Source of the DNA: an uncultured Flavobacteriaceae bacterium
GTDB lineage: Bacteria; Bacteroidota; Bacteroidia; Flavobacteriales; Flavobacteriaceae
Direction: 5' to 3'
Assembly: GCA_913045325.1 (NCBI GenBank)
Contig: CAJWPZ010000002.1
Coordinates: forward strand, 62,001 to 126,000
Length of the DNA: 64,000 bases
The notes under the pieces are model-generated. The model was not told the origin of the DNA. It did not search any database and saw nothing but the letters and a program-made list of their open reading frames with translations. A program made the translations under genes and the position numbers. Of this stretch, positions 39,078 through 43,874 are shown piece by piece; within the stretch, counting starts at the first letter, position 1; every line of letters begins with the position of its first letter.

Positions 39078-39453
39078 CGTGGTACATGCGTTTAACTTGA
39101 GTATTGGTTTTTTAGTCTTAATTTAATAGTATCCCCTTTTGTCAAAAATATTTTTTGATAGAAAATTAAAGAAAATACAAAAGAAATAAAGCATAGCTAG
39201 AGCTGTGTCATGAAAAAAGATTTATAGATTAAACAATGTATGTGCTTATTAAAAATTGATTGCCTTTATAATTAGATCCGTAAATATTTACGCTTAAGGC
39301 ATACTCTTTTTGATATTTAGACAAAGATAAAAAAATGAGCAGTGCTACATGTTTGTTTTCTGTAAAATTTATAGTGAGTTGTAAACCAAACATAAAATTA
39401 ATTTTTAATTCCAAAACAAATCATAACCTTGTAGCAAAACACATGTCTTTTTG
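39078..39453. other. 376-base divergent intergenic region, dehydrogenase / ECF sigma operon
   Basis: No supported gene. On the minus strand TATTTTTG at 39150-39143 is the likely -7 box of the dehydrogenase-nhaD unit, without a -33 TTG at ideal distance. On the side of the sigma gene there is a small inverted repeat AATTAA-TTT-TTAATT (39396-39410), 43 bases before its ATG. I cannot recognise an ECF-type promoter by eye. Confidence 0.6.
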
Positions 39454-39963
39454 ATGGACTTTGATGCCTTCTACACAAAAAATAAGAATCTTGTTTACAA
39501 TCTAGCACTCCAATATGTTCAAAACATAGAGCAGGCGCAAGAAATCACGCAAGATGTTTTTTTAAAGGCACACCAAAAAATACATACTTTTAAAGGTCAG
39601 GCAAAAATAGAAACGTGGCTATACAGAATTACTATCAACACGAGTTTAGATGCCATTAAAGCAAAAAAAAGGAAGAAACGCTTTGCTATATTTAGCTATA
39701 ATCAAGACGAGCTTACCAATAGCACAGATTTTAATCATCCAGGAATTACTCTAGAAAATAAAGAGGCATTACAAGCGCTCTTTAGTTTAATTAACAAGCT
39801 TCCACAAACACAAAAAACAGCATTGATACTTGTAAAAATAGAAGGCAAAAGCATCAAAGAAGTTGCCCACATTCTAGAAAAAACACCAAAAGCTGTGGAG
39901 TCTTTATTGCAGCGAGCAAAAACACAACTCAAAATATATAGAACCCAAACCGAAGGATTATGA
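39454..39963 (+). CDS. ECF-type RNA polymerase sigma factor (first gene of metal-sensing operon)
   Basis: A 169-residue extracytoplasmic-function sigma factor. Region 2 covers about 3-75 (FDAFYTKNKNLVYNLALQYV, then EITQDVFLKAHQKIHTF and TWLYRITINTSLDAIKAKK). Region 4 is the helix-turn-helix LPQTQKTALILVKIEGKSIKEVAHIL..VESLLQRAKTQLK. I use the ATG at 39454; the frame opens one codon earlier with TTG. Its stop codon overlaps the next ATG (ATGA). By position it should be held by the 92-residue membrane protein and released on a periplasmic metal signal, as CnrH is by CnrY/CnrX. Confidence 0.9.
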   Translation: MDFDAFYTKNKNLVYNLALQYVQNIEQAQEITQDVFLKAHQKIHTFKGQAKIETWLYRITINTSLDAIKAKKRKKRFAIFSYNQDELTNSTDFNHPGITLENKEALQALFSLINKLPQTQKTALILVKIEGKSIKEVAHILEKTPKAVESLLQRAKTQLKIYRTQTEGL

Positions 39964-40238
39964 CAAAACCATCGTCAAAAAAACATATGACAGACCCTTT
40001 AGATCTTTTACAAACCATTAAACCAGTTGCTATAGATCACAAAGTATATCAAACTATTGTTGAGAAAATTGCAATCTCAAAACCAATAGTGCCTTTGCAG
40101 TGGCTTCATACTGCTGCTGCTATTTTAATTTGTTTTATTAGCATAGAAGGATATCTATTAGCTAGTGAGTCCAGCCAAAGAACTAATGATTTTTCTGAAC
40201 TAATTACCCAAACAGACAACACCCTTTATTATGAGTAA
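39960..40238 (+). CDS. Single-TM anti-sigma factor candidate (CnrY-like layout)
   Basis: A 92-residue protein with a cytoplasmic N-terminal half of about 45 residues (DPLDLLQTIKPVAIDHKVYQ), one membrane helix (WLHTAAAILICFISIEGYLLA, about 48-68) and a short periplasmic tail. It has no zinc-binding HxxxCxxC motif. Size and topology match CnrY-type anti-sigma factors (about 95 residues), but I do not claim sequence homology. ATG overlaps the sigma stop codon, and its own end overlaps the next gene by 8 bases, so the three are translationally coupled. Confidence 0.7.
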   Translation: MTKPSSKKHMTDPLDLLQTIKPVAIDHKVYQTIVEKIAISKPIVPLQWLHTAAAILICFISIEGYLLASESSQRTNDFSELITQTDNTLYYE

Positions 40239-40695
40239 AAACAAAAAATATAGCATATTGATTATTTCCTTATTGGTGATAAATACTATTCTTGTGGGCT
40301 TTGTAATTATAAAACCTAAAAGACCCTTAGGGAAGGAAAACAAAAATCCAAAAGAGGTTATTATAAAAAAACTACAATTTAATGAAGCGCAAATTACTCT
40401 GTACACTTCTTTAGTGAAGCAGCATCGTAAAGCCATCAAAGAAAAAGACACCCAAATTCGTAGCAGTAAAAAAAATCTTTATACGTTGTTATCTAACCAC
40501 ACTATAGTTACAACTCAAAAAGATTCTATTTTCACTAGTTTAGGAGTATTACAAAAAGACATTGAAATGTTACATTTTAAACATTTTCAGGACATCAAAA
40601 AAATATGTAATCCATCACAAGAAGAATCTTTTAACGCATTAGCAAAAAACTTAGCCAGTCTTTTTAAAGGGCAAAAAAAGCGACAAAAAAAATAA
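40231..40695 (+). CDS. Membrane-anchored CpxP/Spy/CnrX-like periplasmic metal sensor candidate
   Basis: A 154-residue protein with an N-terminal membrane anchor (about 7-27) and an all-helical periplasmic domain starting LQFNEAQITLYTSLVKQHRKAI. This LxFxEAQ..Y..L...H pattern and the closing C-N-P-S-Q..SF helix resemble the Spy/CpxP/CnrX hairpin family. Possible metal ligands are His65, His90, Met113, His115, His118 and Cys126. CnrX has the same size and anchors a metal-sensing CpxP fold to control CnrY. It overlaps the anti-sigma gene by 8 bases. The metal is unproven; copper is suggested by the downstream genes. Confidence 0.75.
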   Translation: MSKNKKYSILIISLLVINTILVGFVIIKPKRPLGKENKNPKEVIIKKLQFNEAQITLYTSLVKQHRKAIKEKDTQIRSSKKNLYTLLSNHTIVTTQKDSIFTSLGVLQKDIEMLHFKHFQDIKKICNPSQEESFNALAKNLASLFKGQKKRQKK

Positions 40696-40698
40696 TCT

Positions 40699-41391
40699 AT
40701 GCGTGTAAAGTCAACCTATATATGTTTGTTTTTATTGTTGTTTAGTTTTCTAGTTAAGGCACAAAAAAGTACAGATACAATATCATTTCAGCTTCTTTTT
40801 AACAAAGCACCATTAGCGTTAGGAAAACAATATTCTATTTCAGATAAAGATAGTCTTACCATAGATTTTTTAAAGTTTTACATTTCAGATATTACTTTTT
40901 ATAACAAGGGTAAATACGCAGGAAAATCTATAGAAAAATACCATTTAATAGATGCTCAAATTAGCAATAGCTACACAACGCATTGCACCCTAAAAAACAA
41001 AGAGTTTGATAGCATAACATTTAGTATTGGCCTTGATTCAAAAACACAAGAAAAAGGAATTCAAGGCGGTGTATTAGATCCAACAAGCCAAATGTATTGG
41101 ACATGGCAAAATGGATTTATTAATTTTAAATTAGAAGGAAAATCCAGCTTGTGTAGTACTAGAAAAAATAGATTTCAATTTCATATTGGAGGGTTCCAAA
41201 AACCCTATCAAACAAGGCAAGAAGTGACCCTAAGTCATTCAGGGTCATCATCTTTAATGATTGGTGTTGATCTAGCAACTTTTTTTAATGCAATAGATAT
41301 TTCACAAACCAATACGGTGAGCAGTCCAAATAAAAATGCTGTGATGGTTTCTAAGGTATTGCCAAGATTGTTTTCTAGCCATGAAAATTAA
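40699..41391 (+). CDS. MbnP-family copper-binding protein
   Basis: A 230-residue periplasmic protein with a signal peptide (cleavage near VKAQK, 19-23). Family marks are SISDKDSLTIDFLKFYISDITF at the start of the beta domain, DPTSQMYWTWQNGFINFKLEG (about 127-147) and RFQFHIGG (158-165). The only two tryptophans are W134 and W136 in MYWTWQ. MbnP proteins bind copper after their partner di-heme enzyme MbnH converts a conserved Trp to kynurenine (established for methanotroph MbnP). Here the next gene encodes that type of enzyme, with 11 bases of overlap. Confidence 0.85.
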   Translation: MRVKSTYICLFLLLFSFLVKAQKSTDTISFQLLFNKAPLALGKQYSISDKDSLTIDFLKFYISDITFYNKGKYAGKSIEKYHLIDAQISNSYTTHCTLKNKEFDSITFSIGLDSKTQEKGIQGGVLDPTSQMYWTWQNGFINFKLEGKSSLCSTRKNRFQFHIGGFQKPYQTRQEVTLSHSGSSSLMIGVDLATFFNAIDISQTNTVSSPNKNAVMVSKVLPRLFSSHEN

Positions 41392-42415
41392 AACAATACT
41401 AGTAGGATTGGGTATTTTATGCACCGCTGTCTATTGCGGGGTAAAAAAGAATGTTTTGCAAACTCCCGAATATTTTCCTGTACCACATTACAATTTTAAT
41501 AACAACCCAACATCTGAGGCTAAAATAAAGCTTGGAAATAATTTATTTTATGACCCGTTACTTTCTGCTAACAATACGATTTCTTGCGCCTCGTGTCATT
41601 CTCCATATGCAAGTTTTGCACATACAGACCATGATTTAAGTCACGGTATTTATGACAGCATAGGAACAAGAAATGCGCCCCCACTATTTAATCTAGCTTG
41701 GCAAGATCGCTTTATGTGGGATGGGGCAATAGATAATCTTGACGCGCAGGCCCTTGCACCTATTAGCCATGCAACAGAGATGGGAAGCTCTATAAATGAG
41801 GTAGTAGCCAAGTTAAAAGCACATCCAAAATATCCGGGGTTATTTAAAGGTATTTACAAAGACACCCTTATAACTGGAGAACGAGTATTAAAGGTCTTGG
41901 CACAATTTCAGCTCTCGCTACTCTCTAGCGATTCTAAATACGACCGAGTACAAAAGGGTACTGCTAGCTTTACTACAAAAGAAATTAGTGGCTATAACAT
42001 CTTCACATCTAATTGTGCAAGCTGTCATGCAGAACCTCTTTTTTCTACCTTCCGTTTTGCCAACAATGGTCTTGAAGTAGACCCTATACTAAACGACATT
42101 GGAAGACAGAAAATTACTTTAAATTCTAGAGATAGCCTGCATTTCAAAATACCAAGCCTTAGAAACTTAAAATACACATTTCCATACATGCATGATGGAC
42201 GCTTTAATACCCTAAGAGAAGTCTTGAAACACTACACACAAAAAATTAAAAATAGTCCTACCCTATCTCCAGAATTAAAAAACGGCATCTCACTTACAAA
42301 AAACCAACAAACAGATTTGATTGCCTTTTTAGCCACTCTAAACGACCGAGACTTTATTATTTCACAAAAACACCAAATAAATAAATCCTTTTTCACAAAT
42401 ACCGAAGGAAATTAA
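41381..42415 (+). CDS. Di-heme cytochrome c peroxidase family protein, MbnH/MauG-like
   Basis: A 344-residue exported enzyme. It has an N-terminal hydrophobic segment (5-18) and two c-type heme sites, CASCH at 69-73 and CASCH at 212-216. Other family motifs are GTRNAPPLFNLAWQDRFMWDG (95-115), with Trp107 where MauG-type enzymes have an inter-heme tryptophan, and FPYMHDGRF with a candidate axial Met. Being paired and overlapped with an MbnP gene, it is more probably the MbnP-modifying oxidase MbnH than a bulk peroxide scavenger. A general CcpA role remains possible. Confidence 0.88.
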   Translation: MKIKTILVGLGILCTAVYCGVKKNVLQTPEYFPVPHYNFNNNPTSEAKIKLGNNLFYDPLLSANNTISCASCHSPYASFAHTDHDLSHGIYDSIGTRNAPPLFNLAWQDRFMWDGAIDNLDAQALAPISHATEMGSSINEVVAKLKAHPKYPGLFKGIYKDTLITGERVLKVLAQFQLSLLSSDSKYDRVQKGTASFTTKEISGYNIFTSNCASCHAEPLFSTFRFANNGLEVDPILNDIGRQKITLNSRDSLHFKIPSLRNLKYTFPYMHDGRFNTLREVLKHYTQKIKNSPTLSPELKNGISLTKNQQTDLIAFLATLNDRDFIISQKHQINKSFFTNTEGN

Positions 42416-42446
42416 AAAAGCCATCGTCTAATAAAAAAACACGTAC

Positions 42447-43814
42447 ATGAAAAATCTATTATTACTTGCAGTGGTCTTTGCATCATTTAGCTCAAATGCA
42501 CAAGGACCCAACATTATCAATTGGCTTCAAAACACAACAGAAACAGGAAGCTATTACACACAAGGGAACAACACTGCAATTCCAAATAATATTTTGGTGA
42601 ATTGTCAAGTAGTTCAATACAATAACAACTGGGTATATGTATCTACAAATGGGGTTCCATCATACCCAACTGGACCTTTTTTAGGCGGTAATCCATCTAA
42701 TGCCGAGAGCCAAGATGCTATTTATAGATTTAATCTAAATCCTCAAGAAAACACTGGCACTAAAACACAAACCAGTCTAGGAAATATTGGAAATTTCATT
42801 AATGGGGTTTCTTTATTTGACTTCAGAGATGGCGTAGCCTGGAATCCAAATACAAATTCTTTTTGCGGAGGCCCAGGAAACCCACCTTGTCCTGGAGGCC
42901 CTATGGCAATTCAAGACTGGAATAGAGATGCCGTTGTGTATGAATTAGGGGGGTTTGACTGTTCAAAAGGACATCCTGCAATGGGAAACTATCACCACCA
43001 TCAAAACCCATCTGCCTTTAAATTAGACTTAGAAGTAATTTCTACCATATGTAATCTATATGATGCAGATGGCCTATACGTCATAGACACAAATGAGCAT
43101 TCTCCCCTTATTGGATACACAAATGATGGGTTTCCTATTTATGGAGCCTACGGGTTTACTAATGCAGATGGCTCTGGAGGTATTACCAGAATACGCTCTG
43201 GCTATGAGTTAAGAGATATAACCATACGTAACACACATGCAGATGGAAGCCCTGTTAGTATGGGAGCTCCTATAAACAACACTTACCCATTGGGTTCCTT
43301 CAGAGAAGATTATCAGTGGGTAGCGCAAGAGGGACAACAAAACTATCTTGACCAACATAATGGTCGTTTTGCTGTAACACCAGAATATCCTAATGGTACA
43401 TATGCCTATTATGCGACTGTAAATGAAACCCACAACTCTGAATATCCTTATGTTGTAGGGCCTAGCTTTTACGGAGAAGTAACTGGCGGAAGAGTTAATA
43501 ACATTCCAGGAAATACAACTGTTTATGAAAACCCACTACAAATTAACAGCAATGTAATATCTAGTGAAATTGTATCTATCTACCCAAACCCAAGCACAGA
43601 TTTGGTAGCCATACAATTAAATACCTTAGTCACAAAAAAAGTGACCATAACATTAAAAGATATCACTGGAAAACTAATTCAAACAACCCATATTAACCCG
43701 GGTGGTACTATCGCATTTTTTGACATCCAATCTCTATATGAGGGGGTTTATTTAGTCAAAATAAATAATGGACAAAGTAGTATTACAAAACAAATAATAG
43801 TTAAAAGAGACTAA
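42447..43814 (+). CDS. Secreted YHYH-domain protein with T9SS sorting domain
   Basis: A 455-residue protein with a signal peptide ending SSNAQ. It carries a large domain with the YHYH-family signature as GNYHHHQNPSAF (about 180-191), a Gly/Pro/Cys-rich loop (FCGGPGNPPCPGG), TNDGFPIYGAYGF, and a type A T9SS C-terminal domain (SIYPNPSTDLVAI through GVYLVKINNG..KQIIVKR). The histidine cluster suggests metal binding. It starts 31 bases after the di-heme enzyme and ends the operon at a strong terminator. The T9SS tail predicts surface display or release, extending the pathway outside the outer membrane. Confidence 0.85.
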   Translation: MKNLLLLAVVFASFSSNAQGPNIINWLQNTTETGSYYTQGNNTAIPNNILVNCQVVQYNNNWVYVSTNGVPSYPTGPFLGGNPSNAESQDAIYRFNLNPQENTGTKTQTSLGNIGNFINGVSLFDFRDGVAWNPNTNSFCGGPGNPPCPGGPMAIQDWNRDAVVYELGGFDCSKGHPAMGNYHHHQNPSAFKLDLEVISTICNLYDADGLYVIDTNEHSPLIGYTNDGFPIYGAYGFTNADGSGGITRIRSGYELRDITIRNTHADGSPVSMGAPINNTYPLGSFREDYQWVAQEGQQNYLDQHNGRFAVTPEYPNGTYAYYATVNETHNSEYPYVVGPSFYGEVTGGRVNNIPGNTTVYENPLQINSNVISSEIVSIYPNPSTDLVAIQLNTLVTKKVTITLKDITGKLIQTTHINPGGTIAFFDIQSLYEGVYLVKINNGQSSITKQIIVKRD

Positions 43815-43837
43815 GTTTTTATTGTAATAAATCTTAT

Positions 43838-43872
43838 AAAAACAGCCCTAGTGATTTACTAGGGCTGTTTTT
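43838..43872. terminator. Bidirectional terminator at the end of the sigma/MbnP operon
   Basis: A 15-bp perfect stem (AAAAACAGCCCTAGT with ACTAGGGCTGTTTTT) and a 5-base loop, with T runs on both strands, lies between the YHYH gene and the convergent DUF2452 gene. Confidence 0.92.
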
Positions 43873-43874
43873 AT

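Follow-up and report, generated by a model that had tools for sequence, protein, structure and literature searches.

Six co-directional open reading frames (ORFs) at positions 39454-43814 of the window, the 64,000-nucleotide stretch of an uncultured Flavobacteriaceae genome analyzed here, form an operon that recurs across the Bacteroidia. The first three encode an extracytoplasmic function (ECF) sigma factor, a putative small anti-sigma factor and a membrane-anchored protein with a predicted CnrX/CpxP fold, hereafter the sensor. We refer to these as the trio. The other three encode an MbnP-family protein, a di-heme enzyme of the MbnH/MauG type and a YHYH protein with a sorting tail of the type IX secretion system (T9SS). 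On balance, we favor the reading that the operon is a CnrX-like envelope switch, which controls an exported protein and its periplasmic copper partner.

Gene order across Bacteroidia

Relatives of the sensor were found in 12 of 59 near genomes, the window's own genome included. A class-wide search with a 12-row sensor profile gave matches in 95 of 395 genomes and 65 of 197 genera, at 104 places. Two of these places (in the own genome and in G039) were already among the first twelve, and 22 lie outside the mapped set. The mapped set contains 92 sensor-bearing loci from 90 genomes and 33 GTDB families: the window, 11 loci from near genomes and 80 of the class-wide places. The latter are mostly the best-scoring ones, and the sample therefore leans towards window-like proteins. 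A larger set of 111 loci adds 19 named ones (L060-L078), partly on contigs that were already included. Because of these repeated contigs, the gene-order counts rest on the 92 loci. Sigma genes were counted up to 1.2 kb upstream of the sensor gene and output modules up to 8 kb downstream of it, both on the same strand.

The sigma gene accompanies the sensor in 88 of the 92 loci. MbnP is found in 43 loci (26 genera, 21 families), MbnH in 46 and YHYH in 54 (35 genera, 25 families), while SCO1, CotH and ASST genes are present in 11, 6 and 3 loci, respectively. The MbnP gene starts less than 1 kb from the sensor gene in 34 loci. In 29 loci, from 21 genera and 18 of the 33 families, the genes follow the order sigma, sensor, MbnP, MbnH, YHYH. 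By a rough estimate (at most six copies per genome and about 3.5 million bases), approximately one MbnP gene is expected by chance within 8 kb of the 92 loci. With this recurrence, the six-gene arrangement is far above chance. Conservation of gene order was the check that an initial annotation of this DNA had set for itself, and its expectation was borne out. An assembly artefact as the source of the arrangement is ruled out, because the same order is found in many genomes.

When loci were instead counted by unbroken gene runs, 80 contained sigma, 40 MbnP, 50 YHYH and 27 the six-gene order. These counts are lower because mbnH is split at L015, L083 has a second trio, L112 contains an overlapping gene and the gap at L089 is longer, all of which runs miss. 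At the genome level, the co-occurrence of the sensor and MbnP is only modest (MbnP in 86 of 95 genomes, the 86 being read by eye, versus 212 of 300; Fisher 6e-5), because MbnP is common anyway, being present in 298 of the 395 genomes of the class. One contig (L072), titled as a metagenome-assembled genome (MAG), Rhizobium sp. Q54 MAG, carries the trio, MbnP and a piece of MbnH at its end; this is probably a binning error.

Operon layout

The coordinates of all six ORFs (Table 1) agree with those of the initial annotation. The junctions between them measure, in order, -4, -8, +3, -11 and +31 bases, and a strong palindromic terminator follows the last gene. Thus the earlier description of six genes with overlaps or short gaps and one terminator holds, no junction exceeding 31 bases. 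The program lists the terminator on the minus strand; a T run follows the palindrome on the plus strand too. The left flank, on the opposite strand, contains a glutamate/leucine-type dehydrogenase gene and a gene for a multi-spanning membrane protein. The right flank contains a DUF2452 gene, also on the opposite strand. In family scans, the second and third proteins of the operon had no Pfam match near the curated cut-off and no NCBIfam match.

Table 1. Features of the six-gene operon and its immediate surroundings (window positions; aa, amino acids)
Feature	Coordinates	Strand	Basis
ECF sigma factor, 169 aa, regions 2 and 4	39454-39963	+	PF04542 8e-17, PF08281 1e-13, TIGR02937 above cut-off
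Putative small anti-sigma factor, 92 aa	39960-40238	+	Position and size, from which the role is inferred
Membrane-anchored sensor of CnrX/CpxP fold, 154 aa, conserved H65, H118, C126	40231-40695	+	AlphaFold2 (AF2) model, fold matches, conservation
MbnP-family protein, M132, W134-T-W136, H162	40699-41391	+	PF20243 2e-39
MbnH/MauG-type di-heme enzyme, C69-C72-H73, C212-C215-H216, Y285	41381-42415	+	CCP_MauG PF03150 5e-52
YHYH protein with T9SS type A sorting tail, 455 aa	42447-43814	+	PF14240 2e-50, PF18962 3e-14
Palindromic terminator at operon end, 17-pair stem	43836-43874	.	Terminator listing of the window
Weak candidate ECF-type promoter, ATAACCTT-N14-GTCTTT, just 5' of the sigma gene	39423-39450	+	Pattern search, low confidence

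Sensor, sigma factor and anti-sigma factor

The AF2 model of the sensor has a mean pLDDT (predicted local distance difference test) of 86.9. It is composed of an N-terminal membrane helix and a periplasmic four-helix hairpin fold (helices 3-27, 40-48, 52-87, 94-125 and 128-144), as expected of the CnrX/Metal_resist fold. The best matches of the model among solved structures are CnrX, as the initial annotation had proposed for this protein; NccX, ZraP, CpxP and Spy are found lower, among other helical chains. A VIA alignment of the model with CnrX gives a Z score of 11.8 over 107 residues, with a root-mean-square deviation of 2.3 angstrom. The Metal_resist family (PF13801) matches 5 of 12 sensor-family members, the best at 3e-5, and gives no match to the window protein at E 1. 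A 12-row sensor profile gave a weak match to Spy (0.0097), which was lost with a 22-row profile. Together, the predicted fold and the PF13801 matches of family members make membership in the CpxP/CnrX superfamily well supported. A CnrX-like role of the sensor is likely.

Conservation was assessed in alignments of 112 sensors, 57 MbnP and 62 MbnH proteins, with some duplicates among the sensors and MbnP. His65 is present in 101 and His118 in 105 of the sensors. Judged by counting along the two helices, these residues would lie opposite one another in the predicted hairpin. Cys126 is present in 94 sensors and is replaced by leucine in 16. No second invariant cysteine is found in the aligned sensors.

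The first protein of the operon is a short sigma-70 protein with regions 2 and 4, which identifies it as an ECF sigma factor. Its best match in the PDB is of the sigma-H type (6e-16), with CnrH (4cxf_A) at 1.9e-7; it is closer to the sigma-H/RpoE types than to CnrH. The second protein contains one hydrophobic stretch (about residues 50-70, by eye) and a short tail ending in NTLYYE, and has no significant Pfam match. The zinc anti-sigma motif HxxxCxxC is absent from all 104 of its relatives. Its small size, its single membrane helix and the missing zinc motif are traits of a class II anti-sigma factor, and we infer that it is an anti-sigma factor of the CnrY kind. An NxLY-type tail is found in 52 of the 104 relatives (within 40209-40238 in the window). 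It is expected to be located outside the inner membrane, where the sensor or a protease might make contact with it.

Patterns upstream of the sigma genes were also inspected. In L015 and L016, the two closest relatives, the second box of the candidate promoter is not conserved. AACC-GTCT (upstream of 7 of 106 sigma genes, 1.0 in shuffles) and AACCTT-GTCT (upstream of 5, 0.2 in shuffles) are enriched, in a small subset of the loci. CGTC forms are not enriched (1 of 106 versus 1.1). Sigma-A-like boxes (10 of 102 versus 4.9) and SM5-like boxes (11 versus 5.9) show only mild enrichment. We do not claim autoregulation from the DNA. Upstream of the sigma gene, at about 39363-39386 of the window, a block TAAAATTTA followed by GAGTTGTAAAC is common to the three genomes of the genus with all six genes; it may belong to either of the divergent promoters.

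MbnP, MbnH and the YHYH protein

Met132, Trp134, Trp136 and His162 of the MbnP-family protein are invariant in all 57 sequences, as expected of the family. We take these to be the residues of the MbnP copper site as identified by Manesis et al. 2021, where MbnP is said to bind Cu(I) through the histidine and methionine after MbnH has turned the first tryptophan of the WxW motif into kynurenine. Searched against solved structures, the MbnP profile gave no meaningful match.

The di-heme enzyme shows the di-heme fold, two CxxCH motifs and a tyrosine in place of the methionine heme ligand, all characteristic of MbnH/MauG. C72, H73, C212, C215, H216 and Y285 are present in 62 of 62 sequences and C69 in 61. 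The best PDB match of its profile is 6e1c, 'Di-heme enzyme' (1e-55), presumably the solved MbnH, in which the residue aligned to Tyr285 is also a tyrosine. Family matches and conserved residues thus uphold the MbnP and MbnH identities given earlier. The MbnP_like_WxW equivalog TIGR04052 scores 37.2 bits against a cut-off of 140, and the MbnH equivalog TIGR04039, though the best match, scores 196.8 bits against 362.85. Since these curated cut-offs are not reached, the window proteins are family relatives and not members of the equivalogs.

The own genome contains a second MbnP-MbnH pair without a trio (L026:7041-8902; G000:C1, about 161000-163000). It is located slightly upstream of genes that resemble SUF iron-sulfur genes by eye. 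At L157, a T9SS tail is also scored in an MbnH-like protein, and such a tail would place a MauG-type enzyme outside the cell.

The YHYH protein is composed of a PF14240 domain and a C-terminal T9SS type A sorting domain; the tail noted in the initial annotation is therefore real by family match. H176, Y182, H183 and H185 are invariant in 14 aligned proteins. The structure model of this protein is poor (pLDDT 46.7). The only account of the domain that we found in print predicts a Zn-type metal-dependent hydrolase in phages, with a metal site formed by three conserved histidines and an aspartate (PMC7824862, in the part available).

Modularity of the outputs

Within the genus of the host, all six genes are located between the dehydrogenase and DUF2452 genes in three genomes, the own one, G010 and G003. 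The mbnH gene of G010 is broken into two pieces that overlap (L015:4300-5333), by a frameshift or a sequencing error. G006 has the trio alone at that site, between the same neighbors. In G004, G005 and G009 the trio adjoins the dehydrogenase gene and lacks an attached MbnP, MbnH or YHYH. In G008, the anti-sigma and sensor genes are retained between both neighbors (L017:7168-7757); no sigma ORF or remnant is recognizable between them and the dehydrogenase gene. G001, G002 and G007 gave no sensor match, at completeness 77, 83 and 82. Because sister species hold the trio alone at the same place, and other loci have SCO1 or other outputs, the trio and the copper module are separable, a point that the initial annotation missed.

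The sigma and sensor proteins of 80 loci were also joined and placed on a quick tree, in which support values were unused. MbnP presence changes 14 times on it, and a four-state output label changes 21 times versus 34 in shuffles; L083 and L089 carried the wrong output label and L112 was not included. It seems that the trio has endured while its output modules were repeatedly lost or exchanged.

The trio is accompanied most often by YHYH. Among the 54 YHYH loci, MbnP is found in 38, SCO1 in 11 and both in none (hypergeometric 5e-8, uncorrected for relatedness). None of the 11 SCO1 loci contains MbnP, and the exclusion over all 92 loci has a hypergeometric value of 5e-4, likewise uncorrected. 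Next to YHYH, MbnP and SCO1 are alternatives to each other. The SCO1 proteins contain CxxxC in 12 of 12 cases and the distal histidine in 11, the twelfth lying at a contig end. Multicopper oxidase genes are found in 9 of the 111 loci, redoxin genes in 9 and sulfatase genes in 8, largely the same loci. Many trio outputs carry T9SS tails, including both multicopper oxidases that were scanned. The modularity of the output is the strongest new hint for copper. The trio operons at L060:3425-9232 and L066:10140-12491 are extended by a T9SS-tailed multicopper oxidase and by redoxin or thioredoxin genes, and that at L060 also by a T9SS-tailed sulfatase.

The same pattern could be explained differently. 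MbnP-MbnH and SCO1 may be maturation helpers of the YHYH protein, in which case the switch would control a secreted metal enzyme and not copper homeostasis. That YHYH is the commonest output, and that its two partners never coincide beside it, is consistent with this, as are its predicted metal site (PMC7824862, in part) and the invariance of H176, H183 and H185. In mtoX-SCO1-mauG operons, SCO1 and the MauG-like genes are thought to be helpers of the copper enzyme methanethiol oxidase (PMC5739008, in the part available). However, the published YHYH prediction concerns phage proteins and Zn rather than copper; 5 of the 43 MbnP loci have no YHYH; and MbnP/MbnH pairs are also found without a trio, such as the second pair of the own genome. 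We regard this explanation as possible, on the unlikely side.

Proposed mechanism and alternatives

In the mechanism that we favor, the 92-residue membrane protein would hold the ECF sigma factor at the inner membrane at rest. The CnrX-fold protein, anchored beside it, would hold the sigma complex shut from the periplasm. When periplasmic metal, most probably copper, changes, it would be bound by the His65-His118 pair with Cys126 nearby, and the altered sensor would free the sigma factor, which would drive the operon. MbnH would be expected to oxidize a tryptophan in the WxW motif of MbnP to kynurenine, allowing MbnP to bind Cu(I), and the YHYH protein would leave through the type IX system. 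We infer that the sigma factor, anti-sigma factor and sensor interact and that the sigma factor controls the downstream genes. Copper is the presumed signal; kynurenine is presumed to form in this MbnP, and the YHYH protein may take part in copper handling. For the direction of the response, analogies point to opposite answers. The copper repression of the MopE/CorA systems argues for induction by copper shortage, whereas the analogy to CnrX argues for induction by metal.

Several results weigh against this mechanism. The best Foldseek E value of the sensor model is 0.035, with no match under 0.001. An unrelated helical chain reaches a Z score of 10.0, and the tool warns of scores below about 13 for helical bundles. 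By sequence, a profile of 22 sensors matched no chain of the CpxP fold. The likeness of the second protein to CnrY, drawn in the initial annotation, found no support at the sequence level: the anti-sigma profile A8 matched no PDB chain at E 10, CnrY included. Two-box pattern searches found no conserved autoregulatory promoter upstream of the sigma genes. Within 8 kb, 28 of the 92 loci contain none of MbnP, MbnH, YHYH, SCO1, CotH and ASST, although some of these loci are cut by contig ends. At L069 (3768-8406), the trio precedes genes for a quite different output: an ATP-grasp enzyme, a pyridoxal phosphate (PLP) decarboxylase and a urea transporter that includes an M23 peptidase domain. These module-less loci and the L069 outputs indicate that the trio is not tied to copper everywhere.

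The metal site also differs from that of CnrX, whose ligands we take to be His42, His46, Glu63 and His119. In the structural alignment (model 40-147, CnrX 42-148; good to about one residue), only H118 falls near CnrX His119. The aligned sensors contain no counterpart of CnrX Met123, His42 or His46, and no conserved histidine or methionine there, a further point against a CnrX-like switch. Met123 is needed for the Co/Ni sensing site of CnrX (PMC7689651, in the part available). Because it and most other CnrX ligands are not conserved, the sensor is no member of the Co/Ni sensor group, yet it may work like CnrX. Thus, of the likeness to CnrH-CnrY-CnrX drawn in the initial annotation, the fold of the third protein stands, whereas most of the CnrX ligands are absent. 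Genes like the L069 outputs are also present at L122 and L133, judged by place and size and, for L133, by the starts of the proteins.

The trio may alternatively be a general envelope- or secretion-stress switch similar to CpxP or Spy, with MbnP, MbnH and YHYH as one of several envelope outputs. CpxP and Spy have the same fold as the sensor, many outputs carry T9SS tails, and trios are also found alone or ahead of unrelated genes. In Flavobacterium psychrophilum, an ECF-type promoter motif controls parts of the T9SS (PMC9723704, in part). However, a chaperone-like sensor would not need the conserved His65, His118 and Cys126, and copper proteins (MbnP, SCO1, multicopper oxidase) are frequent among the recognizable periplasmic partners. 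This makes a stress switch rather unlikely.

A more specific form of the copper mechanism can also be drawn. The CnrX-fold sensor would read periplasmic copper through a new His/His/Cys site, and the sigma factor would make YHYH as an exported copper protein not recognized before, with an interchangeable loader, either MbnP finished by MbnH or SCO1, the whole having spread through the Bacteroidia. The published Zn guess for YHYH counts against a copper-loaded YHYH protein, and we consider this scheme speculative and, taken as a whole, unlikely.

Sensing of redox state or peroxide, with Cys126 or heme-related oxidants as the signal and the di-heme enzyme in the oxidant response, would fit the frequent Cys126, the place of MbnH within the di-heme peroxidase superfamily and the redoxin-type genes, but is improbable given the missing second invariant cysteine, the leucine at position 126 in some sensors and Tyr285, which presumably marks MauG/MbnH-type enzymes as opposed to classical peroxidases.

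The operon may represent a route of copper handling that has not been described before. MbnP/MbnH pairs are known above all from methanotrophs. The recurring operon, also present in named strains such as Flavobacterium swingsii DSM 21789 (L065), Flavobacterium luteum NBRC 112527 (L066) and Chryseobacterium cheonjiense RJ-7-14 (L062), ties such a pair and YHYH to one switch, and its signal, its targets and the role of YHYH thereby become directly testable. CnrX-type sigma regulation would also be extended to the phylum Bacteroidetes, where a class I anti-sigma domain is encoded near only 6% of ECF sigma factors and other modes of control are therefore expected (PMC7406223, in the part available).

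Comparison with known systems

Among the matches listed in the open literature (titles and abstract starts, with subscription papers mostly outside), no description of the six-gene operon was found. Manesis et al. 2021 reportedly include a neighborhood analysis, in which the operon might be mentioned.

Two parallels are known: CnrYXH and the MbnP/MbnH pair beside MbnI/MbnR in Methylosinus (PMC3621798, in part). CnrYXH, the Co/Ni sensing trio of Cupriavidus metallidurans, is the precedent for the switch (PMC7689651, in part). It has an ECF sigma factor, a small membrane anti-sigma factor and a membrane-anchored periplasmic sensor, whose fold is the one predicted here. Unlike CnrYXH, the operon lacks most CnrX metal ligands and contains another conserved set, His/His/Cys; it has no efflux pump, and its output genes encode MbnP, MbnH and a secreted protein. 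The Cnr gene order also differs from that of the operon, in which the sigma gene is first.

The Methylosinus MbnI-MbnR-MbnT system also has an ECF sigma system beside an MbnP-MbnH pair. There the sigma factor is regulated via a FecR-like protein and a TonB receptor (PMC3621798, in the part available), whereas the operon here has a CnrX-fold sensor and no TonB receptor. The methanotroph systems MopE/SACCP and CorA/CorB similarly combine a kynurenine copper(I) protein, at the surface or secreted, with a di-heme enzyme. They differ in protein family and host group, and are repressed by copper (PMC3621798, PMC3912023, both in part). The mtoX-SCO1-mauG operons place a copper chaperone and a MauG-like gene beside the gene of a copper enzyme, as the YHYH operons may do. 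Their output is methanethiol oxidase instead of YHYH, and in Ruegeria the regulator is of the IclR type (PMC5739008, in part).

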